A DNA stretch of 64,000 nt from a virus, in IMG/VR virus record IMGVR_UViG_3300035680_001201, positions 1 through 64,000 of that record. One strand, given 5' to 3'. A program made the translations under genes and the position numbers. Below the pieces are notes generated by a model. It was given only the letters and a program-made list of their open reading frames with translations, made no database searches and was not told the DNA's origin. Below, one piece after another: positions 4,807-19,005 of the stretch; the first letter of the stretch is position 1, and every line of letters begins with the position of its first letter.

Positions 4807-6903
4807 ATGAGAATTTGTCAAGTTACACCGGGATTGATATCGATACCACCAAATGGTTGGGGAGCTATAGAAAAGATTATATGGGAATATAAGCAATCAT
4901 TGGAAAGAATGGGTCATGTTTGTGACATTAAATATTTGGATGATGTTAAAGTTGAAAACTATGATGTAGTTCATATTCATGTTGCTAATTTGGCTTTACT
5001 TGCACATGAACGTAAAATTCCTTATGTGTTTACCATGCACGATCATCATACTGAAGTATATGGTGATCAGTCTGCATTATATAATCAGAATCGTGAGGCG
5101 ATGGAAAAGTCTATAATTTCCTTTGTTCCTGCCACTCATTTGGTTTCGTATTTTAATAGTAGACGTGTAAAGTATTTGCGTCATGGTGCTAACACATCAT
5201 TTTTTACTCCGGGTGATCCTAATAATAAAAAACATAAGTTGTTGTGTGTTGGAAGAAACGGATTACATGCAAACATGTCATTTGACCGTAAAGGGTTTGT
5301 TTATGCAATTGAGGCAGCTCGTAAGCATGATCTTGAATTGACTATTGCTGGTCCATCTGCTAATAAAGAGTTTTTTGAAACCAACAAAGATTTCAAGCCG
5401 TATGACAAAGTGAAATTTTTGTATGATTTGAACGAAAAAGATTTGGTTGAAGTTTATCGTGATCATACTATTTTTCTACATCCATCGTCAGTTGAGGCCG
5501 GTCATCCTAATTTGACGTTGGTTGAAGCTATGTCATGTGCACTTCCGGTAGTTTCTACATATGATACTGATGCTTTGCCAGGCATGGTTAAGATAGAACG
5601 TAATGTTGAATCAGTATATAAAGGAATATCTACTGTAATGAATAACTGGCAGCAATTGCGACGAGATGCGTTAACATATGCTAAATCGAATGATTGGAAC
5701 TTTGTTGTTGATGATTTGATCAAAGAGTATAGAAAAGTGGATGAATATCGTATGAAAAACGAACTGAACGATGTTTATGATCAAACACTTATGAATGTCA
5801 AGCAACACCAGAGTGCGAAGATCACAATTGATTATTGTGATGGAGCTTATATTTCTATAAACGGTGGCGATCCATCAACTAAGTACGATTTTGATTTTGT
5901 TGATGAAAATACTGGTACTTCATTATTTGGTGGCACGTTAAAATCAAATGAATGGTCTCGGTGTTTTGTGAAGCGTTTTATTCCGTACAACATTAAAATT
6001 AGTTCGGGGTCAAAATTAATTTTGGATAGTAAGTTAGATTTGAAAAACAAAAACGTGTTGATTTGTTTGGATACACGATCATTGGGTGATTGTATTGCTT
6101 GGTTTCCGTATGTAGAGGAGTTTAGAAAGAAACATGGGTGCAATATCACGTGTGCAACAAATTGGAGCACATTGTTTCAAGACAATTATCCTGACATTAA
6201 GTTTTGTGGATTAGAATGGCATGGTGATTTTTACGCCGTTTACCGAATTGGTTGTTATCCTGATAAACATCGTTCATTTTATACATATAAAGAGGTTACA
6301 TTACAGAAATTGTCATCTTCGATATTGGGACTTGATCATACAGACATTAAACCAAAAATTTCTGTTAGAAATAAGAATCGTCTTGTTGAAGATCGTTATG
6401 TTTGTTTTGCCACACATTCTACTTCGCAGGCTAAGTTTTGGAATAATCCTACTGGTTGGCAGGAAATGTGTGATTATTTGAATAGTATTGGTTTGAAACC
6501 AATGTTGATTCAGTTGGAAGAAAAGAATGATATTACTAATATTATTAACAAGTCTGGTGCAAAGGATATACACGAAACTATAAATTTGTTGTATAACTGT
6601 GAATTCTTTGTTGGAATTGGATCGGGGTTATCATGGTTGTCATGGGCATTGAATAAGCCAACGGTTTTGGTGAGTGGATTTAGTTTACCAGAGAGTGAGT
6701 TTTATACACCTTACCGTGTTATTAACAAAGACGTGTGTCATGGTTGTTGGAATGATTGTGATTTTGATAAGGGTGATTGGAATTGGTGCCCTCGACAAAA
6801 GGGTACTGATAGACAGTTTGAGTGTTCTAAACAAATTAGTTCTCAAATGGTTATAGATAAAATCAATGACCTTATTAAGACTGAAAGTATACGCACCTCT
6901 TGA
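4807..6903 (+). CDS. Fused GT4 glycosyltransferase and BAHT/TibC-like O-heptosyltransferase
   Basis: A 698-residue protein with two catalytic halves. Residues 1-310 form a GT4 GT-B domain: Pro-Pro-Asn-Gly-Trp-Gly-Ala near the N-terminus, His-Pro-Ser-Ser-Val-Glu-Ala and a later Glu in the donor site. Residues about 335-690 resemble bacterial autotransporter heptosyltransferases (BAHT: Aah, TibC). There is a beta-rich stretch, then a GT9-like half with Asp-Thr-Arg-Ser-Leu-Gly-Asp and Gly-Ile-Gly-Ser-Gly-Leu-Ser-Trp. A cysteine cluster follows (Cys644, 647, 651, 661, 673), placed like the iron-finger of TibC. BAHT enzymes heptosylate Ser in beta-helical autotransporters; here the adjacent Gly-Thr-Ser fibre is the obvious candidate acceptor. 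The GT4 half might extend the first sugar. The sugar donor cannot be read from sequence. Confidence 0.75.
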   Translation: MRICQVTPGLISIPPNGWGAIEKIIWEYKQSLERMGHVCDIKYLDDVKVENYDVVHIHVANLALLAHERKIPYVFTMHDHHTEVYGDQSALYNQNREAMEKSIISFVPATHLVSYFNSRRVKYLRHGANTSFFTPGDPNNKKHKLLCVGRNGLHANMSFDRKGFVYAIEAARKHDLELTIAGPSANKEFFETNKDFKPYDKVKFLYDLNEKDLVEVYRDHTIFLHPSSVEAGHPNLTLVEAMSCALPVVSTYDTDALPGMVKIERNVESVYKGISTVMNNWQQLRRDALTYAKSNDWNFVVDDLIKEYRKVDEYRMKNELNDVYDQTLMNVKQHQSAKITIDYCDGAYISINGGDPSTKYDFDFVDENTGTSLFGGTLKSNEWSRCFVKRFIPYNIKISSGSKLILDSKLDLKNKNVLICLDTRSLGDCIAWFPYVEEFRKKHGCNITCATNWSTLFQDNYPDIKFCGLEWHGDFYAVYRIGCYPDKHRSFYTYKEVTLQKLSSSILGLDHTDIKPKISVRNKNRLVEDRYVCFATHSTSQAKFWNNPTGWQEMCDYLNSIGLKPMLIQLEEKNDITNIINKSGAKDIHETINLLYNCEFFVGIGSGLSWLSWALNKPTVLVSGFSLPESEFYTPYRVINKDVCHGCWNDCDFDKGDWNWCPRQKGTDRQFECSKQISSQMVIDKINDLIKTESIRTS

Positions 6904-7122: not shown

Positions 7123-10100
7123 ATGCCAATTACAGAAGGGGGTACATTTACTCCACATAATCCAATAGTGAGTCCGGGCGTTTTTAGTCGTGAAAACGAC
7201 CTATCAGGTCTCGCTCAGGGTGTTGCTGATATTGGTGGAGCAATTGTCGCTCCCTTTCCAAAGGGACCGGGTTTTGCTCCAACAGTTGTCACCAGCGTTG
7301 CTGAGTTAGAAGAAAAATTTGGTGTAGCGGACGGAGTATATTACGGTCCTTACACTGCTAAACAATATCTACAAGAACAAGGTCTTGTGACTGTGTGTCG
7401 TGTAGGTGCGTTAACAGGTTACGAACAAGATAATCCGTTTGTGATTTACGCAATTCCGGGTTATTATAATCGTGCCACCGAAAGTGGTTCATTTACCGCT
7501 TTGGGAACTGCTGATTCATCATATATTGCTCTTGATCCTGATGATATCATGGTCAATATTCAATATGTCAGTTCTAGTGCAACTGAAACATTGACGATTA
7601 CTGGTAGTTTGTACGCAAACTTTGAAACCAGTTCATTCTCAGTGTACAACCCACCGGGAACACCAGGCAACAAGACATATACCACTCGTTACATCGGTGA
7701 TGTACATTTTACATTTGATGCTGCGCACTTTGAAATCAGTTCAAGTTATCAAGGTGACGGATCACTTAGTGCAGATGCTAAGTTGTTGCGTGCTCTTGCT
7801 GAACAAACCGGAAAGTTCTCTGGAAGTTTGGCAACAAGCAGCAGTTTGGTTAAGTTGAGTGATGATTTCCCTGTGTCTGGTACCGCATCTGAAGTTATTA
7901 TCAATAACATCAGTTTTGCTAAATATCGTCCAGCTAATAGCTGTGGTGTTCAAATTCAATTGACATGTAACATTAGCGGTAGTTTTGGTAAATACACTTC
8001 ATTTGTTGAAACTACGGTTTCTGGTGGAGATCCTTGTAATGATGGTGTTGCTCGTGAGTCTATAGTTTTAGCTGTATTGGCAAATACACAAAATGCAGCC
8101 ATTCAATCTGATGCCAATAACAAATTGGCACAAGTTGTATATGGATTTGAGGGTTCTGCTTTAAGTAAGAAGATTGCAACATCAGGATTGTACAGTGGTA
8201 GTATTGATCCGACCGCACAAGACTTTGTTCTTGATTTGCGTTATAACATCGGTGGTACAAGTGGAAGTTACGGAATCTATGAATTCTCATTGGATCCAGC
8301 AAGTTCTAATTATATTACCAACGTGTTTGGATCTGATCCAACTGCTGGTGATCCAGCAAAACAAGTTGCTGGTCAAAAGATTGAAGCTGCTTATTTATAT
8401 AAGATCTTCAAGGATACAATTGGACGTATTGTTCAAGAAGCAACAGATCCATCTGATGGATGGTTGATTGTTGGTAGTTCAGCTCCATATGTTCCATCTG
8501 GGGGTGCAAATGAACTTACCTTTAATGGTAATCCAATGAAGTTTACTGACGACTACGGTTACGCACCAACAACTGGTGATAGTGATTTTAGTTTGAAGTG
8601 GGCATCAACACCTTGGATTAACTCACAACAAGTTGCACCATTTACTGGTACATCAGATGTAACTGCACAACCACAACGTTTCCCATTATTCCGTGTTCAC
8701 ACTCTTGCTGACGGAACCAATATGAACACGTCATACAAGATCGAAATCAGTGATGTAAAACTCGCTGGTACCGTTACTGGTAGTGATTATGGTTCATTTA
8801 CATTGGCAGTACGTAAGTTTAGTGATACTGATAAGAATCCTAAGTATTTGGAACGTTTCCAAAACTTGAATCTTGATCCTGATAGCAGCAACTTCATTGC
8901 TCGTCGTATTGGTGATCGTTACAACTATATTTCTTACTCCGGTAAGATTATTGAGTTTGGTACGTATTCCAATTTGAGTAAGAATATTCGTATTGAAATG
9001 ACCGAGAACGTGTATCCAATATCAGCAGTTCCTTACGGATTTGATGCTCTTGCTACACCACTTGGTGGTAACGTCGGTGGATATTTGCCACCAGTTCAAT
9101 TCAGTCGCGCATCAACATATTCAACTGCTCCGGGTAGATATCCATCTGGTATTGTATTCGGTGAACCACCAATTGGTGCAGCTGATGATTTGTTGGCATT
9201 GTATCCTACATCATCACTTGGTGTATACAGTGTATATAACGACAATATTCAATACTTTGCTCCATTGCCTTCTTATGAAGGATTTAGTTCAATTGGCAAC
9301 AATGTTGTATTTGACCTTGAAACAGGTGATACATACAATCCAGTTGGTTCTAAACAACCAGATGTTCAAAACGACAGTGCTGGTATTCCATCAACTTATG
9401 ACGCTGCATACGAATCAACCCGTGTGAAGATGCGTAAGTTTATACTTGGATTCCAAGGTGGATTTGATGGTCAATCACCAGCAATTCCAATCAACGTTGG
9501 ATCTGATATCATTCCAGGCAACACGCAAGGTTTGAACTGTACTAGTATTACAAGTCCAGGCAGTATTGCTTACAGACAATGTATTGGTGCACTAGGTAAT
9601 GCTGACGAGTTTGATATTAACTTGATTGTGACTCCGGGTATCTTCTATCAACACCACAGTTATGTGGCACAGTTGACAATTGATATGTGTGAAGCACGTG
9701 GTGATTGTTTCTATATCATGGATAACGTGGTATTCCCTAAGAGCAATCAAAGCGTTGGATTGATTGATGCTGCTATTAATGTGGCTGCTACAATTGACAG
9801 CAGTTACGTTGCTACATACTATCCATGGGTCAAGATTCTTGATACCAATTTGAACAAGATTGTTAGTGTTCCACCATCAGTTGTTCTACCTGCTATCTAC
9901 GCAGCAAACGATAAAGCATCTGCTGAATGGTTTGCTCCAGCTGGTTTAAACCGTGGTGGTATTACACAAGCAGTTCAAGTGTTGGATCGTTTGACACACG
10001 GTGAACGTGATACCCTCTATGAAGGTCGTGTGAACCCAATTGCAGCATTCCCCGGTCAGGGTATCTGTGTATGGGGTCAAAAAACTCTTCAAATTGCCCC

Positions 10101-10428
10101 AAGTGCATTGGATCGTATCAATGTTCGTCGTTTGATGATCAACTTGAAGAAGTTTATTGCTTCAAGTTCACGTTTCTTGATTTTCGAACAGAACGTCGCA
10201 AATACACGTAACCGTTTCTTGAGTATTGTAAATCCTTACCTTGAACAGGTTCAACAACGTAGTGGTGTGTACGCTTTCCAAGTGAAGATGGATGAAACAA
10301 ATAATACACCTGATTTGATTGATAGAAATATCCTTTATGGTCAAATCTTCCTACAACCAACCAAGACTGCTGAATTCATTATTCTTGATTTCAACATCTT
10401 GCCTACGGGTGCATCGTTCGGTGCTTAA
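7123..10428 (+). CDS. gp18: Contractile tail sheath protein
   Basis: A 1101-residue protein, longer than the roughly 660-residue T4 gp18, as is common in large phages. The N-terminus has the sheath-type 'Ser-Pro-Gly-Val-Phe-Ser-Arg-Glu-Asn-Asp' opening. The C-terminal 130 residues carry the conserved sheath core: an Asn-x-Arg-Arg-Leu-Met-Ile-Asn-Leu-Lys-Lys helix, Phe-Glu-Gln-Asn-Val-Ala-Asn-Thr-Arg, and a final beta strand (Ala-Glu-Phe-Ile-Ile-Leu-Asp-Phe-Asn). The middle is a large variable beta-rich insertion (about 120-700) that would be exposed on the sheath surface. It has a good ribosome site (gaaagg) and its own upstream TATTTATA box. An intrinsic terminator follows directly, so it is probably a monocistronic, highly expressed late transcript. 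Confidence 0.95.
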   Translation: MPITEGGTFTPHNPIVSPGVFSRENDLSGLAQGVADIGGAIVAPFPKGPGFAPTVVTSVAELEEKFGVADGVYYGPYTAKQYLQEQGLVTVCRVGALTGYEQDNPFVIYAIPGYYNRATESGSFTALGTADSSYIALDPDDIMVNIQYVSSSATETLTITGSLYANFETSSFSVYNPPGTPGNKTYTTRYIGDVHFTFDAAHFEISSSYQGDGSLSADAKLLRALAEQTGKFSGSLATSSSLVKLSDDFPVSGTASEVIINNISFAKYRPANSCGVQIQLTCNISGSFGKYTSFVETTVSGGDPCNDGVARESIVLAVLANTQNAAIQSDANNKLAQVVYGFEGSALSKKIATSGLYSGSIDPTAQDFVLDLRYNIGGTSGSYGIYEFSLDPASSNYITNVFGSDPTAGDPAKQVAGQKIEAAYLYKIFKDTIGRIVQEATDPSDGWLIVGSSAPYVPSGGANELTFNGNPMKFTDDYGYAPTTGDSDFSLKWASTPWINSQQVAPFTGTSDVTAQPQRFPLFRVHTLADGTNMNTSYKIEISDVKLAGTVTGSDYGSFTLAVRKFSDTDKNPKYLERFQNLNLDPDSSNFIARRIGDRYNYISYSGKIIEFGTYSNLSKNIRIEMTENVYPISAVPYGFDALATPLGGNVGGYLPPVQFSRASTYSTAPGRYPSGIVFGEPPIGAADDLLALYPTSSLGVYSVYNDNIQYFAPLPSYEGFSSIGNNVVFDLETGDTYNPVGSKQPDVQNDSAGIPSTYDAAYESTRVKMRKFILGFQGGFDGQSPAIPINVGSDIIPGNTQGLNCTSITSPGSIAYRQCIGALGNADEFDINLIVTPGIFYQHHSYVAQLTIDMCEARGDCFYIMDNVVFPKSNQSVGLIDAAINVAATIDSSYVATYYPWVKILDTNLNKIVSVPPSVVLPAIYAANDKASAEWFAPAGLNRGGITQAVQVLDRLTHGERDTLYEGRVNPIAAFPGQGICVWGQKTLQIAPSALDRINVRRLMINLKKFIASSSRFLIFEQNVANTRNRFLSIVNPYLEQVQQRSGVYAFQVKMDETNNTPDLIDRNILYGQIFLQPTKTAEFIILDFNILPTGASFGA

Positions 10429-10555: not shown

Positions 10556-12343
10556 ATGCCTTATAAAAGATGTAATCAATGTAAAAAAAGATTGAGCGAT
10601 AATCATAGTAATTTTTTTTGTAATATTATATGTGAAAATTTGTATGTAAATTCATCAGATATTTTTTGTAAATTTTGCAACGTCCTATTAGGAAAACAGT
10701 CTACAATTAAAAATAAAATTTTTTGTAATACTGTGTGTCATAATAAGCATCAACAAAAAACAAATTTAGAAAATAGAAATTGCATCTATTGTAATACTAC
10801 TTTTGTAGTTACGAGAAGTTCTAAAAGAAAAAAATTATGTTCACCTGAATGTGAAACGTTTCATGCTAAATCAAGTGAAAGAAACGACAAACGAAAAAAT
10901 ACATTAATTCAAAATAATTTAGAAAAATACGGCGTAGAAAGTATTTTTTCGTTGAAAGAGGTACAAGAAAAATCTAAAAAAACAAAATTAAATAAATATG
11001 GACATGAATATTTTAATAATAACGAGATTGCTAAACAAACAAAATTAAATAAATATGGAACTTTAGATTTTAGTGATAAAGCAAACAAAACAAAATTAAA
11101 AAAGTACGGTACTTTAAATGTAAACGATAAATCAAAACGGACTAAACTAGATAAATATGGTACATTAGATTTTAGTAATAAAGCAAACAAAACAAAATTA
11201 GACAGATATGGCACTAAAAACTTTAGTAACAAAGCTAAAAAAACAACTATAGAAAAATATGGGTCATATTCAAATATTTTATTAAAAAAATCATTTAAAC
11301 GATTAGAAGAAAAATATTCATCAATTGTTAAATTTTTATTTTCAGAAGATGAATATGTTGGTGTGAATGAATATAAAAAATATAAATTTGAATGTTTAAG
11401 ATGTTCTAATATTTTTGTAGATGATATGTGTAATGGTAGTTCGCCTATTTGCAGAATTTGTAATCCAATAACAAGTAATATTTCAAGTGAAGAAAAAGAA
11501 ATTTTATCTTATATAAAAACAATTTGTGATGCTGAAATTATAGAGAATGATAGAAATACATTAAATGGACAAGAAATTGATATTTTAATACCAAACTTAA
11601 ATTTGGGTATCGAATATAACGGAATATACTGGCATAGTGAACTTGTTGGCGGTAAAGATAAACACTATCATTTAAACAAAACTAAGTTATCACTTGATAA
11701 AAATATTCAATTGATGCACATATGGGATTGGGAATGGCGGTGCAAAAACTCTATAATTAAAAGTATTTTGATTAATAAGATGGGTAAATCTGCGAAAGTT
11801 TATGCACGAAAATGTGTGGTTAAAGAAGTGTCAAATGAAGATAAATCAACCTTTTTGGAAGACAATCATATACAGGGAGATGATACGTCATCAGTACGAT
11901 TAGGGTTATATCATAACAACGCATTGGTTTCTATAATGACATTTGTCAAATCCAGATACGATAAAAAATATCAATACGAACTATCTAGATATTGCAATTT
12001 GTTAAACACAAATATTGTGGGAGGATCTTCTAAGTTATTCACGCATTTTATTAAAAATTATGATGTGAGTTCAGTTGTGACTTACAGCGATAAACGTTTA
12101 TTTACAGGAAAAGTTTACGAAAGGTTGGGTATGCGGAGGTTGAAAAATACTCCCTGTGGTTATCATTATTTTCATAAAAATAACGGTATTCCAATGAATA
12201 GAACTCATTTTCAAAAACACAAGCTTAATAGAATCTTAGAAAAGTTTGATAGTGGTTTGAGTGAATGGCAGAACATGCAAATTAATGGTTATGATCGCAT
12301 ATGGGACTGTGGACACTTTAAGTTTGAATGGACACGAAAATAA
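10556..12343 (+). CDS. Homing-endonuclease-like protein with zinc fingers and tandem DNA-binding repeats
   Basis: A 595-residue protein. The first 110 residues carry several Cys-x2-Cys pairs (Cys7/10, 22/26, 38/41 and further pairs), which look like treble-clef or zinc-ribbon fingers. Residues about 140-240 hold about six tandem copies of a roughly 17-residue unit around Thr-Lys-Leu-x-Lys-Tyr-Gly-Thr. Such Lys-Tyr-Gly units occur in phage homing nucleases as DNA-binding modules. A further Cys-x2-Cys pair lies near 285-300. After about 345 a nuclease-like core appears: Glu-Ile-Asp-Ile-Leu-Ile-Pro, Gly-Ile-Glu-Tyr-Asn-Gly-Ile-Tyr-Trp-His, then His-Ile-Trp-Asp-Trp-Glu-Trp, as in Vsr/PD-(D/E)xK-type homing enzymes. 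It is more AT-rich than the flanking virion genes and is bracketed by matching terminators, as expected for a mobile insertion. No intron boundaries are visible, so it looks free-standing. Confidence 0.8.
   Translation: MPYKRCNQCKKRLSDNHSNFFCNIICENLYVNSSDIFCKFCNVLLGKQSTIKNKIFCNTVCHNKHQQKTNLENRNCIYCNTTFVVTRSSKRKKLCSPECETFHAKSSERNDKRKNTLIQNNLEKYGVESIFSLKEVQEKSKKTKLNKYGHEYFNNNEIAKQTKLNKYGTLDFSDKANKTKLKKYGTLNVNDKSKRTKLDKYGTLDFSNKANKTKLDRYGTKNFSNKAKKTTIEKYGSYSNILLKKSFKRLEEKYSSIVKFLFSEDEYVGVNEYKKYKFECLRCSNIFVDDMCNGSSPICRICNPITSNISSEEKEILSYIKTICDAEIIENDRNTLNGQEIDILIPNLNLGIEYNGIYWHSELVGGKDKHYHLNKTKLSLDKNIQLMHIWDWEWRCKNSIIKSILINKMGKSAKVYARKCVVKEVSNEDKSTFLEDNHIQGDDTSSVRLGLYHNNALVSIMTFVKSRYDKKYQYELSRYCNLLNTNIVGGSSKLFTHFIKNYDVSSVVTYSDKRLFTGKVYERLGMRRLKNTPCGYHYFHKNNGIPMNRTHFQKHKLNRILEKFDSGLSEWQNMQINGYDRIWDCGHFKFEWTRK
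10979..11270 (+). repeat. Tandem 51-bp repeats encoding a Thr-Lys-Leu-x-Lys-Tyr-Gly unit
   Basis: About six units of 17 residues (51 bp), each with Lys-Leu-x-Lys/Arg-Tyr-Gly-Thr followed by a Phe-Ser-x-Lys-Ala linker. At DNA level the copies share long stretches such as aaaacaaaatta. This suggests recent internal duplication within the homing-endonuclease-like gene. Confidence 0.8.
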
Positions 12344-12623: not shown

Positions 12624-12691
12624 TTGATTATTGCGCAGCAATGCTTATAGGTAATTTCTCACATTGTCAAGATCTTATTGAATTTTCTTGA

Positions 12692-12699
12692 TATTTATA
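12692..12699 (+). promoter_or_regulatory. TATTTATA box before the HAD phosphatase gene
   Basis: Perfect TATTTATA, five bases before the ATG at 12705. This short spacing recurs at 14639 and 37214 and would imply very short or absent 5' leaders. Confidence 0.4.
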
Positions 12700-12704
12700 C
12701 TCAA

Positions 12705-13331
12705 ATGATACAATTAAAACAAACTCTTCTTGAAGTTTTTGATCATAATCTATTGGAGACTGATGATGAAAATTCAACGGTCATTTATTGTGACATGGAT
12801 GGAGTTTTAGCTGATTTTGATAAGGGATTTGAAAAGTTATCCAATGGAGTATCTGCTGCTGAATTTGATCAAAGAAATCAAAGTAGTGAAATTTGGAGAC
12901 TAATATGGAGCGCTCCACCGGATCATGGTATTACGTGGTGGTCAATATTGCCAAAAATGGAAGATTGTGATGTTCTTTGGAAGTTTATAACATCATTAAA
13001 AGTACCGGTCAAAATTTTAAGTAGTACATCTTCCAGAAGGTCAAAAACTAATAATGCTGAAATTGGTAAACGTAAGTGGTTATCAACCAATTTAACTCCA
13101 ACACCTAAAGACGAAAATATAATACTAGTTGATAGTTCAGAAGCTAAGCAACAATATGCGTTAGGACCAAATCATATATTAATTGATGATTTGCCTTCGA
13201 ATATATCTCAATGGAGAGCAAAAGGTGGAACTGCAATTGAACACAAAAAAGCGGAATCAACTATACCTGAATTAAAAAGAATTTTAGGAATAACACAAGA
13301 AAGTTACGGATATAGTTGGTCAAATATATAA
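12705..13331 (+). CDS. HAD-superfamily phosphatase, 5'(3')-deoxyribonucleotidase-like
   Basis: A 208-residue protein. I choose the ATG at 12705 because a TTG at 12678 would place the TATTTATA box inside the gene. The HAD nucleophile motif Asp30-Met-Asp32-Gly-Val-Leu-Ala-Asp is clear. A Ser/Thr motif follows near 107 (Leu-Ser-Ser-Thr-Ser), and a late acidic motif (Ile-Leu-Ile-Asp-Asp-Leu-Pro) completes the active site. This pattern fits 5'(3')-deoxyribonucleotidases (NT5C type) found in T4-like phages, which would dephosphorylate dNMPs. It is one base away from the following nucleotidyltransferase gene, suggesting one transcript. The extra N-terminal 20 residues contain a Leu-Leu-Glu-Val site resembling head-protease sites, so packaging cannot be ruled out. 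Confidence 0.75.
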   Translation: MIQLKQTLLEVFDHNLLETDDENSTVIYCDMDGVLADFDKGFEKLSNGVSAAEFDQRNQSSEIWRLIWSAPPDHGITWWSILPKMEDCDVLWKFITSLKVPVKILSSTSSRRSKTNNAEIGKRKWLSTNLTPTPKDENIILVDSSEAKQQYALGPNHILIDDLPSNISQWRAKGGTAIEHKKAESTIPELKRILGITQESYGYSWSNI

Positions 13332-13332
13332 T

Positions 13333-14019
13333 ATGAAAGCGGTAATTTATAACAATACACTCAATCCCAATATCTGGAACAATGATAAAACAATACAGCC
13401 AGATGTTCGTGACGCTTTACTAAAAGTTGCTCAGGACTTTTATGAAGAGACAGAATTGTCAGCACCAATTGAAGATGTGTACATGTTGGGAAGTGCTGCA
13501 AATTACAATTGGGGTCCAACAAGTGATATTGATCTTCATATTTTGATCAATTTTGATAAACTTGGATTGGAACACGATCTTGTAAAAAAAATGGTAGATA
13601 GTATTAAAGCCAATTGGAATAAAAATCATGACATACGTATTCATGGTCACCGAGTAGAGTTGTATATTCAGGATATTAAAGAAACCAATAGAGCATTAGG
13701 AATATACAGTATTTTGAACAATAAGTGGATAAAAGTACCACAGAAGTTGAATTTGAATTTGGATAAGAACGTAATTCAACAAAAATACACAGATATGGTG
13801 GTACAAATTAAAAATGCTATCAAGTCAAATAACTTAACAGATTTAAAACGTGTGTTAAAATCAGTATACGATATGCGTGAAGCTGGTTTAAGTAAAGGTG
13901 GTGAATTCAGTGTGGAAAACATTGTTTTCAAATTACTTCGTACTCGTAATCACGTTGATAATTTGAAAACTGCTGTTAATAAAGTTTATGATACGCAAAA
14001 TTCATTAAAAGAATCATAA
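13333..14019 (+). CDS. DNA polymerase beta-superfamily nucleotidyltransferase
   Basis: A 228-residue protein. It has the nucleotidyltransferase signature Gly53-Ser-Ala followed by Ser-Asp65-Ile-Asp67-Leu-His. A third likely metal ligand is the Glu in Arg-Val-Glu-Leu-Tyr-Ile. The rest is mainly helical and resembles no named family to me. Enzymes of this fold transfer NMP groups to proteins, RNA or small molecules; MNT-type toxin-antidote pairs are another use. It overlaps no gene but follows the HAD phosphatase by one base, so the two probably work in the same nucleotide-related process. Substrate unknown. Confidence 0.7.
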   Translation: MKAVIYNNTLNPNIWNNDKTIQPDVRDALLKVAQDFYEETELSAPIEDVYMLGSAANYNWGPTSDIDLHILINFDKLGLEHDLVKKMVDSIKANWNKNHDIRIHGHRVELYIQDIKETNRALGIYSILNNKWIKVPQKLNLNLDKNVIQQKYTDMVVQIKNAIKSNNLTDLKRVLKSVYDMREAGLSKGGEFSVENIVFKLLRTRNHVDNLKTAVNKVYDTQNSLKES

Positions 14020-14080: not shown

Positions 14081-14572
14081 ATGGCAGATCTACTAAATCC
14101 AAACGAAATGTTTTACACCGTATTTGAACCAAAAGTTCAAAACCGTTTCATTTTCAGTGTTGACGGTATTCCATCTTTCATCATCAAAAAGACGGATCGT
14201 CCAAAGTTGAATCAAGAAAAGAAGACCATTGATTATATCAATACACAACGTTACTATAAAGGTAAGAGCGTTTGGAACGACATTAGTCTTGAACTTTATG
14301 ACCCAATTGCACCATCTGGTGCTCAGGCTGTTATGGAATGGGTACGTTTGCATCACGAATCTGTAACTGGCCGTGATGGTTATCTTGACTTTTATAAGAA
14401 GGATTGCGCCATTTCAATTCTTGGTCCAGTAGGTGACAAGGTTGAAGAGTGGGTATTGAAGGGTGCACAAATTGTAAGTGCAGAGTTCGGTAGTGTTGAT
14501 TGGTCAAATATGGGAGATTCATTGAATATTACATTGAACCTCGCCTACGATTACGCTATACTTCAATTTTAA
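14081..14572 (+). CDS. gp19: Tail tube protein
   Basis: A 163-residue protein, the usual length for T4 gp19. It begins with Met-Ala-Asp-Leu and shows the gp19/Hcp-like beta-barrel pattern: Asn-Arg-Phe-Ile-Phe-Ser-Val-Asp-Gly-Ile-Pro, a long loop, then Trp-x-Asp-Ile-Ser-Leu-Glu-Leu-Tyr-Asp-Pro. Its last strand has the Gly-Asp-Ser-Leu-Asn-Ile-Thr-Leu pattern seen in phage tubes. It stacks as hexamers inside the sheath and conducts DNA. Separated by a terminator from the next gene and preceded by its own TATTTATA box, it is probably expressed alone at a high level. Confidence 0.9.
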   Translation: MADLLNPNEMFYTVFEPKVQNRFIFSVDGIPSFIIKKTDRPKLNQEKKTIDYINTQRYYKGKSVWNDISLELYDPIAPSGAQAVMEWVRLHHESVTGRDGYLDFYKKDCAISILGPVGDKVEEWVLKGAQIVSAEFGSVDWSNMGDSLNITLNLAYDYAILQF

Positions 14573-15062: not shown

Positions 15063-15941
15063 ATGAGTGAAGAAAATATTTCCATTACACGACCATCGAC
15101 AATTGTTGGCGGTCCACCTATTGCACGTCAACCATCAATGTCAGTTCCGTTTAATCAAACTGATATTCCCCAAAAGGTTGTTAGCAAGTTTCCAACTGAG
15201 ACAATTGAATTGCCAAGTGAGGGTCATTTTTATCCAGAAGGTCATCCTCTTTCAGATGGACATTTGGAATTGAAAATGATGACTGCAAAGGAAGAAGATA
15301 TTCTCACCAATCAGAATCTAATTCGTAAAGGTGTCGTTTTGGATAAACTTCTTGAATCGTTGATTGTAACTCAGGTTAAAATTGATGATATTCTTATTGG
15401 TGACAAGAACGCAGCGTTTTTTGCGGCAAGACGACTTGCCTACGGTGATGTTTATGGTCCCGTCAAGATTACGTGTCCTAAGTGTCAGACTGAGTGTGAA
15501 CGAAAGATTGATCTTAGTCTGATGAAGTCTAAGGAATTGGATTTAACTGTGTACCCTAAGGGTCAGAACGAGTTTGAATTTCTTTTACCATATACCAAGA
15601 AGGTTGTTAAGTACAAGTTATTAACACACCGTGATGAAATGACAATTGATGCTGAAATCAAGGCTATGGTCAAGATCAATAAGAATGCAAGTAGTGACGT
15701 TACCACACGTTTGCGTAACATGATTTTATCGATTGATGGTAATTCAGATAGAGCGTTTATTCAGAAGTTTGTAACACAAGAAATGCCATCGAGAGATAGT
15801 TTGGCGTTTAGACAACATGTACGTGAACAAACTCCTGATTTGGATATGACGTTTGATTTTGGATGTGATGAATGTTCGCATGAGGAAAGGGTTTCGGTGC
15901 CGATGACGGCACAGTTTTTTTGGCCTGACTCCGGAGGATAA
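15063..15941 (+). CDS. Tail assembly chaperone / gp26-type baseplate protein, upstream frame of a frameshift pair
   Basis: A 292-residue protein. After a flexible Pro-rich start it has the motif Glu-Leu-Pro-Ser-Glu-Gly-His-Phe-Tyr-Pro. Then comes Met-Thr-Ala-Lys-Glu-Glu-Asp-Ile-Leu-Thr, as in the T4 gp26/gp51-related baseplate family (T4_baseplate). Two Cys pairs (Cys-Pro-Lys-Cys near 140 and Cys-Asp-Glu-Cys near 275) could bind zinc. It lies between the tube and tape-measure genes, exactly where myoviruses encode tail assembly chaperones. Near its 3' end seven T (15915-15921) allow a shift into a second frame that continues to 16119. Its own stop follows only 20 bases after the T-run, as expected for a G/GT-like pair. 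Confidence 0.75.
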   Translation: MSEENISITRPSTIVGGPPIARQPSMSVPFNQTDIPQKVVSKFPTETIELPSEGHFYPEGHPLSDGHLELKMMTAKEEDILTNQNLIRKGVVLDKLLESLIVTQVKIDDILIGDKNAAFFAARRLAYGDVYGPVKITCPKCQTECERKIDLSLMKSKELDLTVYPKGQNEFEFLLPYTKKVVKYKLLTHRDEMTIDAEIKAMVKINKNASSDVTTRLRNMILSIDGNSDRAFIQKFVTQEMPSRDSLAFRQHVREQTPDLDMTFDFGCDECSHEERVSVPMTAQFFWPDSGG

Positions 15942-16119
15942 GATATCGTTACATACACAAATCTTTGATTTGGCGTATTATTCGGAGGGTGCTTTCAATC
16001 ATGAAATAGTGTACAATTTGCCTGTACACTTGCGTGTCTTTTACCTGCGTAAATTGGCCGAAGTTCGGAAAAAAGAAAACGAACAGATGGAAAAAGCATC
16101 AAAACCTAAAGGTAAATAA
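15916..16119 (+). CDS. Frameshift extension of the chaperone (GT-like), +1 or -2 shift at a T7 run
   Basis: This frame lacks any ATG near its beginning; the only ATG encodes a Met 11 residues before the end. Yet it has convincing coding character: about 65 residues with hydrophobic helices (Ile-Phe-Asp-Leu-Ala-Tyr-Tyr-Ser-Glu-Gly, Leu-Arg-Val-Phe-Tyr-Leu-Arg-Lys-Leu) and a basic Lys-rich tail. It is entered from the 15063 frame at ag-ttttttt-gg (T run 15915-15921). A +1 shift gives Gln-Phe-Phe-Gly-Leu-Thr-Pro-Glu-Asp, and a -2 shift adds one Phe. The fused product would be about 351 residues. Phage tail chaperones are classically made as such a pair directly upstream of the tape measure, usually by -1 and in Mu by -2. 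A homopolymer sequencing error is the alternative. Confidence 0.7.
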   Translation, partial: FFGLTPEDKISLHTQIFDLAYYSEGAFNHEIVYNLPVHLRVFYLRKLAEVRKKENEQMEKASKPKGK

Positions 16120-16179: not shown

Positions 16180-19005
16180 ATGGCAGATGATACTGTAGAT
16201 CAAGCACGAAAGATTCAGGACCAGTTGAACGAAAGTTTTCGACGTGGTGCTAAAACCGCGCAAATGACTTCTGATCAAGTTAAAATTCTTAATAATGCTT
16301 ACGATCATCTTGCGGCTGCTGCAAAGATGGCATCAAAACAAGCCAGAGAATTATACAAAGATATTGATATAGTAACTACAGCTTTTTATAATCCGGCGGA
16401 AACGTTCTCAGGATTTTTGCAAAATGGCGTAAATTCGGGTGAAGATTTGTTAAAAACGTTCAGTGCAATTGCAGGATTAATGTTTGATGAACCACTTAAG
16501 AAAGTCAACGACGAATTAAACAAAGAAAAAGCAATATTGGCGGATTTGGAGAAGGCAAGACAAAAGGATATTGCAATCGGAGAAGATTCTGTAAAGAATT
16601 TGGAAGAGAAGTTAAAGAAAGAAAAAGATTTTTGTGATAAGGTAACAAAGTGTGATGATAGTAAAATAAAATCACTTGAAGACCAAATTAAGAAAGAGGG
16701 TGAAAAAGTTACTAAACAAAAAGAAGGCGGGTCATTAGATGATGAAGCAATAAAAGATCAAAAGAAGAAAATTGAAAAGGCCGAAGAATATCTTAAAAAA
16801 CAACAAGCAATTGCAGGTGTTATTAAAGAATTTATTGCAGCATTTGGTGACGCTTTTGATCGTTTTGTTGAGTTGGATAAAGCAGCGGCTGATTTTCGTA
16901 AAGAACTTGGATTGGGAAGAGATATTGCAAGAGGATTGGAACAAACTGCACTTCAATTAAATCAACAATTTGTAAGTTTAGGCGTAACCATTGAAGGTGC
17001 ATACGCTTCTTTAAAAGCAATTGGTAAAGAATTTGGAACCGCTTTATTGATTAATAAAGAACTTGCACAAACCACTGCTCTTTTGGCTGCAAATTATGGT
17101 GTATCTGAAGGTAACGCTGCTGGATTCTTACAAAAGATGTCATCTATTGGAGGAATGACAGATAAACAAGCCAGTGCAATGGCTGGGTTTACTGCTAACC
17201 TTGCAAATGCAGCAGGAGTTAATTTGGATGAAGTGATGAGAGATGTGGCAAACGCATCTGACGATACGGTTACCTTGATGAGAGGCAATGTCAAACAAAT
17301 GACCATGGCCGCAATTCAAGCAAAACAAATGGGTGTAAGTCTTGATAAGTCTGCAAGTTCTGCAAAAGGACTATTGAACTTTACTCAGAGTGTATCTGAT
17401 GAAATGGAAGCTAGTGTATTATTGGGTAAGAACTTGAATCTCAATGCAGCACGTCAACTATCATTCCAAGGAGACGTAGCTGGTGCACAAAAAGAAATAT
17501 TGAATCAAGTGCGTTCGATGGGAGATTTCAATAAGATGAATGTCTTCCAACAAGAAGCACTTGCTAAGGCAACTGGATATAGTGCAGTTGAGTTGACCAA
17601 GATGTTGAAGAACGAAGAGAAACTTGCACAGTTGTCTGACAAGGAAAAGGCTTCATATGAAAAAGCACTTGAAGCAATGAAAGAACAGAATGAAGAAACA
17701 GGAAAAGACCTGTTGATGAAGACTCAAATGCAAAGTGCTATGGCACAATTGAGTAATACGTTCAAATCTTTCAAACAGATACTTGCTGATATTTTGACAC
17801 CGGTTGTAAATGTTGCTGTCAAGTTATTGATTCCAGCATTGAAAATCGCTTTGGTGGTTTTCAACTTATTGTTAGTACCAATAAAGGTTCTTGCTAATGC
17901 ATTGTATAAAATGTGGGAACCAATTGAACCGTTGGTTCAATCATTTAGTGACTCGTTAGATGGTGCAAATAAATTTATCGAGGAAATTGTACAAAAGGGA
18001 ATTGATTTTGGGGTAGTGTTCTTAAAAATTAATTCTGCGATAATGTTGTTTGGTGCTATGTTCAAAACATTTCTAAATCCAATTGAGTTGGTATTTAAAG
18101 GAATTGGTAGAATATTTTCAATGATTAATTCGGGAGCAAGTCGCTTATTAAGTCCGATAAGTGGAATAATTAGTGCGTTTGGAAGTGCAGGTGGAGTGGT
18201 TGGAAAGTTTGCATCCGGATTTGGAAATGTTGGTCGTATCGTTGGTCTTTTGGGAACTGCTGGAAAAGCTATACCGATTGTTGGAACGGTTATCACTGTA
18301 CTACAAGCTGTTTGGGGATTATTTAGTCGTATCAGTAAAGGAATGGGAATATTCGATGCGTTGGGTGAAACACTATACGATGTCTTTGTTGGACCATTTG
18401 AGATGTTAGTAGAACTTTTAACTAAGATTCCGATTATCGGTGATTTATTTAAACCCTTACTTGCAGTATTTCCAATTATTAAATCATCAATTAAAAGTTT
18501 ATTTGGTATGTTTCCTTCTATGTTTGAAAACGTAGTTTCTATACTTAAATCATTTGGATCCGTGTTGTATAAAGTATTCATTCAACCATGGGTCGATGCT
18601 TGGGATTTTATATCAAATTTGTTTGTTGGTAGAAGTAATTCCACACTGGGTAATGGAATTATCAAAGGATTGATTGGCGTTGGAACTGCAATATTGAAAA
18701 TCTTTACGTCTCCCTTTGAATTTATATTTCAAATGATTATGACAGGATTTACGTCAATCGCAACGTTCGTACAAAACGTATTGAGTGTGCCATTCAAGAT
18801 TGTAGGCAAACTAATAGGAGTTGATACTGGAGGAATCGGTGGGGGTGTTGAAGCGGGTAACACGTCACAATCTGATACGATTGCTGCAATAGAACAAACC
18901 AATCAAAAACTTGATACTCTTATCAGTTTAATGATGAACGGTGGTATTGCTGTAAATCTTGATGGTAGAAAAGTAAGTGAACAACTTGCTATTGCAAGTT
19001 CATAA
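16180..19005 (+). CDS. Tail tape measure protein
   Basis: A 941-residue protein, the longest helical protein in the tail module and placed directly after the chaperone pair. The N-terminal half is Ala/Lys/Glu/Gln-rich coiled coil (strong charged repeats about 100-210). The middle (about 560-900) has several Gly/Ile/Val-rich hydrophobic segments typical of tape measures that cross the host membrane. The end carries Ile-Ala-Val-Asn-Leu-Asp-Gly-Arg-Lys-Val, a short motif common at tape-measure C-termini. By the usual rule of about 0.15 nm per residue it predicts a tail of roughly 140 nm. A Cys-x6-Cys pair near 148-155 is unusual in this class. The next gene starts 9 bp later. Confidence 0.88.
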   Translation: MADDTVDQARKIQDQLNESFRRGAKTAQMTSDQVKILNNAYDHLAAAAKMASKQARELYKDIDIVTTAFYNPAETFSGFLQNGVNSGEDLLKTFSAIAGLMFDEPLKKVNDELNKEKAILADLEKARQKDIAIGEDSVKNLEEKLKKEKDFCDKVTKCDDSKIKSLEDQIKKEGEKVTKQKEGGSLDDEAIKDQKKKIEKAEEYLKKQQAIAGVIKEFIAAFGDAFDRFVELDKAAADFRKELGLGRDIARGLEQTALQLNQQFVSLGVTIEGAYASLKAIGKEFGTALLINKELAQTTALLAANYGVSEGNAAGFLQKMSSIGGMTDKQASAMAGFTANLANAAGVNLDEVMRDVANASDDTVTLMRGNVKQMTMAAIQAKQMGVSLDKSASSAKGLLNFTQSVSDEMEASVLLGKNLNLNAARQLSFQGDVAGAQKEILNQVRSMGDFNKMNVFQQEALAKATGYSAVELTKMLKNEEKLAQLSDKEKASYEKALEAMKEQNEETGKDLLMKTQMQSAMAQLSNTFKSFKQILADILTPVVNVAVKLLIPALKIALVVFNLLLVPIKVLANALYKMWEPIEPLVQSFSDSLDGANKFIEEIVQKGIDFGVVFLKINSAIMLFGAMFKTFLNPIELVFKGIGRIFSMINSGASRLLSPISGIISAFGSAGGVVGKFASGFGNVGRIVGLLGTAGKAIPIVGTVITVLQAVWGLFSRISKGMGIFDALGETLYDVFVGPFEMLVELLTKIPIIGDLFKPLLAVFPIIKSSIKSLFGMFPSMFENVVSILKSFGSVLYKVFIQPWVDAWDFISNLFVGRSNSTLGNGIIKGLIGVGTAILKIFTSPFEFIFQMIMTGFTSIATFVQNVLSVPFKIVGKLIGVDTGGIGGGVEAGNTSQSDTIAAIEQTNQKLDTLISLMMNGGIAVNLDGRKVSEQLAIASS

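Follow-up and report, generated by a model that had tools for sequence, protein, structure and literature searches.

Pairs of tail assembly chaperones are known from tailed phages in which the frameshift is -1, -2 (phage Mu) or, very likely, +1 (HSTV-2), and phage T4 was named in 2016 as an exception to frameshifted tail chaperones (PMC5009743). The T4 proteins gp26 and gp51 have been listed among the hub assembly chaperones (PMC3004832), and one GenBank record names gp26/gp51 as tape measure protein assembly chaperones. According to two papers that cite it (PMC10885494 and PMC12846349), the study of Vladimirov, Gautam and Davidson (2022, Virology 566:9-15) identified the tail assembly chaperone genes of T4-like phages; the former paper reports from it that some T4-like phages have one short gene and one fused long gene, and the latter attributes to it the finding of poly-T signals for -1 shifting in the short-chaperone genes of such phages. 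With regard to +1 shifting, CUU_U is the main shift site of the release factor gene RF2 (prfB) and UUU_U a minority variant, and in E. coli tests UUU_U shifted more weakly than CUU_U (PMC5009743). Herein we describe a phage locus that belongs to the T4 gp26/gp51 family and very probably specifies a short and a long form of a tail assembly chaperone, the long one being predicted to arise via a +1 frameshift.

Two overlapping frames between the tail tube and tape measure genes

The window, namely the whole stretch of 64,000 nucleotides analyzed herein (positions 1 to 64,000 of the IMG/VR virus record IMGVR_UViG_3300035680_001201), is a portion of a 126,384-base contig, and its tail region showed almost no DNA-level matches among deposited phages. 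The frames, the shift site and the tail genes described in this section lie on the plus strand. A contractile tail sheath protein of 1101 aa (7123-10428; PF04984 and PF17482; phrog_23, E = 3e-69) is followed downstream by a gp19-like tail tube protein (14081-14572; phrog_4542, E = 1e-23), and the two-frame locus sits between the tube gene and that of the 941-aa tail tape measure protein (16180-19005; phrog_58, E = 5e-16), which is the next gene. The first frame (15063-15941) encodes a G-like short form of 292 aa (TAC-N), the 3' end of which reads CAG TTT TTT TGG CCT GAC TCC GGA GGA TAA with the stop codon at 15939-15941. This end includes the seven-T run (15915-15921) and the candidate shift site TTT TTT TGG CCT (15915-15926). 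The +1 frame, the entry point of which lies between 15920 and 15922, is open until the TAA at 16117-16119 and has the protein sequence FFGLTPEDKISLHTQIFDLAYYSEGAFNHEIVYNLPVHLRVFYLRKLAEVRKKENEQMEKASKPKGK; the part following the shift (15922-16119) comprises a T-like extension of 65 aa and the stop codon. Translation across both frames would yield a GT-like long form of 351 aa (TAC-NC; 15063-16119).

A previous sequence-only reading of this DNA had pointed to the frame at 15063, to the seven-T run and to a startless second frame ending at 16119, and an ORF check of the window confirmed all of these coordinates. Its interpretation as a programmed frameshift with the position and layout of a G/GT-type chaperone pair was supported as well, with the tube gene upstream and the tape measure gene downstream. 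Seven-T runs as such are common, 44 of them being found in the window, which is below the counts in shuffled sequences; TTTTTTTGGCCT occurred once versus 0.03 expected.

Relationship to T4 gp26/gp51

The first-frame protein matched the Pfam family T4_baseplate (PF12322) with an E-value of 9e-14 and 52.1 bits against a cut-off of 24.5, which bore out the previous assignment of the upstream partner to the gp26/gp51 type, and it also matched phrog_150 (baseplate hub, E = 3e-16). No second gene matching PF12322 was found in the contig. T4 gp26 (E = 9e-64) and T4 gp51 (E = 4e-52) both match this family and are therefore paralogues, gp51 being longer by about 48 residues. T4 and the window locus share the family and a short form ending at the same place, and probably also a related C-terminal domain in the long form, but T4 employs two paralogous genes, whereas the window locus has one gene and a putative frameshift.

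In other T4-like relatives, the extension was found in the -1 frame. The cyanophage-type loci carried it with T_TTT_TTC at 80/80 sites (two contigs of this set stop short of a scorable extension), and the S13-like loci carried it at a poly-T site in 17 of 17 cases as well as in S13 (Cronobacter) itself. A -1 extension at poly-T was also present in Aeromonas phiAS5, Rhizobium LG08 and RL38J1, the jumbo phages XacN1 and RAS14, and LR756511. Profile comparison matched the -1 extension to the C-terminus of gp51 (E = 1e-14, Prob 98) and the +1 extension to the -1 extension (E = 5e-8, Prob 95) in an alignment starting at the FF junction, while the direct comparison of the +1 extension with the gp51 C-terminus gave a weak match (P = 0.007). 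These relatives accordingly resemble the window locus in their homologous first frame, the FF at the junction, and the homologous extension, but differ in that theirs is a -1 shift on the canonical heptamer U_UUU_UUC/G, in contrast to the proposed +1 shift on YUU_U. In a tree of the first-frame region, a branch with full support separated the -1 from the +1 rows, apart from a few jumbo and thermophile phages on long branches; gp26 and gp51 grouped together (support 93) among the former, and most +1 rows formed one clade (98) across the branch. The deeper order was unsure because of the long branches.

Structure predictions were made by running AlphaFold separately on the first frame and the extension. 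The first-frame model was confident (pLDDT 83) and had 'baseplate hub' as well as 'T4-like hub assembly' proteins among its best matches in BFVD, with E-values down to 4e-20. Against the PDB its fold gave no significant match; the top two of 41 weak matches by probability (0.28 and 0.15; E = 2.2 and 5.8) were to 2ob9, the tail assembly chaperone of HK97, one to each of its two chains, a similarity between a predicted and a known fold that offers a hint only. The extension (15916-16116; pLDDT 84) was predicted to form three helices, and its fold had nothing significant among viral models, its sequence nothing credible in PHROG; a sequence search of the PDB returned no match.

Two observations on the annotated relatives may be added. 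In RB43 (L106, 2237-2244), homologues of gp51 and gp26 stand in tandem and overlap, an arrangement consistent with duplication. In P-SSM5, RL38J1, Cygsa01, phiAS5 and CZ01, a small ORF following gp26 is annotated as 'gp51 / baseplate hub assembly catalyst'; its counterpart in gp51 is the C-terminal extension only, and in most of these five phages it overlaps gp26 at a -1 slippery site.

Conservation of both frames

Relatives of the window locus were collected from IMG/VR in two groups, one of 80 loci (48-100% identity) obtained by scanning with the upstream protein, and a more distant one of 79 scorable loci of the Flavobacterium-phage-immuto type obtained with a broader alignment. The downstream frame was in the +1 phase with significant similarity in 80/80 loci of the first group and in the +1 phase in 79/79 of the second, both frames and the same offset thus being kept in 159/159 relatives; for one locus (L036), ORF length alone scores -1, and homology of the downstream frame gives +1. 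Tube homology was found upstream in 71/80 and 61/79 loci of the respective groups, and tape measure homology downstream in 76/80 and 50/79. The +1 layout was also present in the annotated records of immuto, Microcystis phage Mel-JY01, Rhodothermus phage RM378, Bacillus phage SP-15, Listeria LIS04 and Streptococcus GXN1, and a scan of genome contigs added three MAG contigs, which are probably phage.

These relatives refuted the explanation that the gene is truly one continuous frame interrupted by an indel from sequencing or assembly. The location of the site in a homopolymer is just where such an error might be expected; however, the offset is identical in all 159 loci, which come from independent assemblies and include broken runs, and the GenBank isolates immuto, Mel-JY01 and RM378 share the layout, so that the probability left to this explanation is negligible. 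Relatives in which six or eight T give a single uninterrupted frame, proposed in the sequence-only reading as the mark of such an error, were sought and not found: three relatives have eight T and keep the offset, because the extra T is part of a TTC codon.

The extension might also be expressed as a separate small gene, with its own start or by translational coupling. There is a parallel for this in the distant -1-type relatives AV101, D533 and Cygsa01, in which the extension has an ORF of its own (with TAATG, or close to the stop) and there is no canonical slip heptamer, possibly a further way to make the extension. In the window, however, no ORF of at least 60 aa starting with ATG, GTG or TTG ends at 16119, so that independent initiation at the start of the second frame is impossible, and the conserved first part of the extension has no start codon ahead of it. 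The search for an independent start in the relatives was equally negative, 64 of the 133 distinct sites having no possible +1-frame start before the upstream stop and the downstream starts being scattered. Moreover, the first +1 codons after the site are under selection: the entropy directly 3' of it follows the +1 codon grid (0.60/0.47/1.10 at positions 1/2/3 over the first 8 codons). A separate gene is thus very improbable for the window locus. Together with two almost invariant motifs, FF-G-L at the junction and a Y..P...R..Y core, these patterns in the aligned sequences indicate that the +1 frame is under selection and very probably translated in fusion with the first.

Candidate shift site and probable direction of the shift

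The shift site conformed to the pattern TTY-YTT-T across the 133 distinct sites, with TTT TTT TGG at 107, TTT CTT TGG at 16, TTC TTT TGG at 4, TTT CTT TAC at 3, TTT TTT TTC at 2, and TTT TTT TAC at 1. All 133 had [U/C]UU followed by U. Upstream Phe codons of the same genes were TTT in 77% and TTC in 23% of cases, and the P-site codon ended in C at 0/133 sites. The seven-T run was broken in 23 of the 133 sites, which had TTC-TTT or TTT-CTT with runs of 3-4 T and never five. Hence, the seven-T run pointed out in the sequence-only reading is not the essential element; YUU with a U after it is. As judged from the alignment, what is common to all sites is a tRNA on YUU that is able to re-pair one base forward on UUU. 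Sites in the distant SP-15, GXN1, LIS04 and LR756508 differed around UUU, and the exact slip point is less clear in these.

The same variants bear on transcriptional slippage, in which loss of one U on the T run would create the fused frame in some of the mRNAs. Seven T at 107/133 sites would suit this mechanism, and removal of one T gives the right frame; the 23 sites with only 3-4 T (TTTCTTT, TTCTTTT) nevertheless retain the same offset and a conserved extension, and we thus regard slippage by the polymerase as hardly likely.

As for the direction, the previous reading had allowed either +1 or -2. A -2 ribosomal shift, by which the tRNA would move back two bases on the T run and one extra Phe would be inserted, leads to the same frame; it is the known mode of the tail chaperone shift in Mu (PMC5009743), it is feasible on TTT TTT T, and at the CUU variant the tRNA could re-pair with UUC. 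The family-wide invariant, however, is YUU and the following U, which is the requirement of a +1 shift. Furthermore, TTC TTT TGG occurs in six loci of several sub-lineages with the offset and the extension kept, and to slip by -2 at these loci tRNA-Phe would have to pair with UCU, mismatched at the middle position. Because the tRNA cannot re-pair two bases upstream at these sites, the -2 alternative was disfavored and is considered improbable. The best reading of the site alignment is therefore that of +1 slippage, in which the P-site tRNA-Phe (or tRNA-Leu) would move from YUU to UUU.

No conserved stimulator of the shift was found. By eye, the aligned sites had no Shine-Dalgarno sequence at the RF2 spacing (3-4 bases upstream of the shift codon), and RNA folding near the site was no better than that of shuffles (z of about -0.7 to -1.1). 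A perfect 6-bp inverted repeat, GTGCCG-ATGA-CGGCAC, is located at 15897-15912, two bases 5' of the shift site; the corresponding upstream hairpin GTGCCGATGACGGCAC was rejected as a stimulator, as it is not conserved in the relatives. The site nonetheless has the P-site CUU or UUU then U of RF2, with re-pairing on UUU (PMC5009743), while it differs from RF2 in having UGG, UAC or UUC in the A site in place of the UGA stop, in lacking a visible Shine-Dalgarno stimulator, and in implying no autoregulation.

Proposed model and comparison with known systems

In the proposed +1 mechanism, the majority of ribosomes would terminate at 15941 to give the 292-aa short form, and a minority would pause with UGG in the A site while the P site holds tRNA-Phe paired to UUU (15918-15920). 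The tRNA would then slip one base forward onto the overlapping UUU at 15919-15921, the next codon would be GGC (15922-15924), and reading on through GGC CUG ACU... would produce the 351-aa form with its helical C-terminal domain, presumably at low efficiency and hence as a low-abundance product. The tryptic peptide predicted for the junction in the window is VSVPMTAQFFGLTPEDK for the +1 shift and VSVPMTAQFFFGLTPEDK for the -2 shift.

The locus resembles lambda gpG/gpGT and the pairs of other long-tailed phages in its position before the tape measure gene, in its predicted short and extended forms, and in the proposed shift shortly before the first frame ends. It adjoins the tape measure gene after the tube gene, has an overlapping, startless and conserved second frame, and bears a conserved slippery site, as is typical of G/GT-type loci. 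These systems differ in using a -1 shift, and no sequence similarity to them was detected in the searches made. By analogy with gpG/gpGT, the tape measure protein would carry a coat of many copies of the short form and few of the long one, the extension would serve to bring in the tube protein or the baseplate, and both forms would be absent from the finished virion.

The connection between the gp26/gp51 family and tail chaperones, which the sequence-only reading had raised, holds; it is not new, because the 2022 study, as represented by the papers citing it, already reports it, and we therefore dropped the idea of gp26/gp51 as short and long forms as a novel one. No description of a +1 shift in this family was found in the literature, in which the 2022 work was represented by its citing papers, and the new part, provisionally, is thus no more than the +1 variant together with the conserved YUU_U site. 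The +1 arrangement is distributed over a large group of uncultured contractile-tailed phages, in which a fraction of the ribosomes would probably skip one base at the conserved UUU-U and thereby add 65 aa. With some reserve, we incline to the broader view that this chaperone family shared with T4 makes its short and long forms in several ways (-1 shift, +1 shift, gene duplication and separate overlapping ORF), and that a large uncultured lineage uses an RF2-like UUU_U/CUU_U +1 shift for which no stop codon and no Shine-Dalgarno sequence are needed, a type of signal not previously described for tail chaperones. Taken with the 2022 work on T4 as cited, this would mean that the two-form design was retained while the route of production changed, the direction of the shift having switched within the gp26/gp51 family with the Phe-Phe slip region kept, and it would provide a +1 site that occurs in nature, is strongly conserved and contains no stop codon. 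It would also correct the annotation of these phages, in which the extension is currently missed or named as a separate or hypothetical gene.

Other genes of the tail region

Several further genes were noted around the tail sheath gene of the window. Immediately 5' of it, a 698-aa protein (4807-6903) combines a glycosyltransferase group 1 part with a glycosyltransferase family 9 part. Between the sheath and tube genes, a 595-aa ORF (10556-12343) with repeated 'KYGTLDFSNKANKTKL' units, CxxC motifs and a weak match to DUF7487 has the look of a mobile, homing-endonuclease-like gene that was inserted there, and the region 12678-14019 encodes an NT5C-like 5'-nucleotidase and a nucleotidyltransferase-domain protein.
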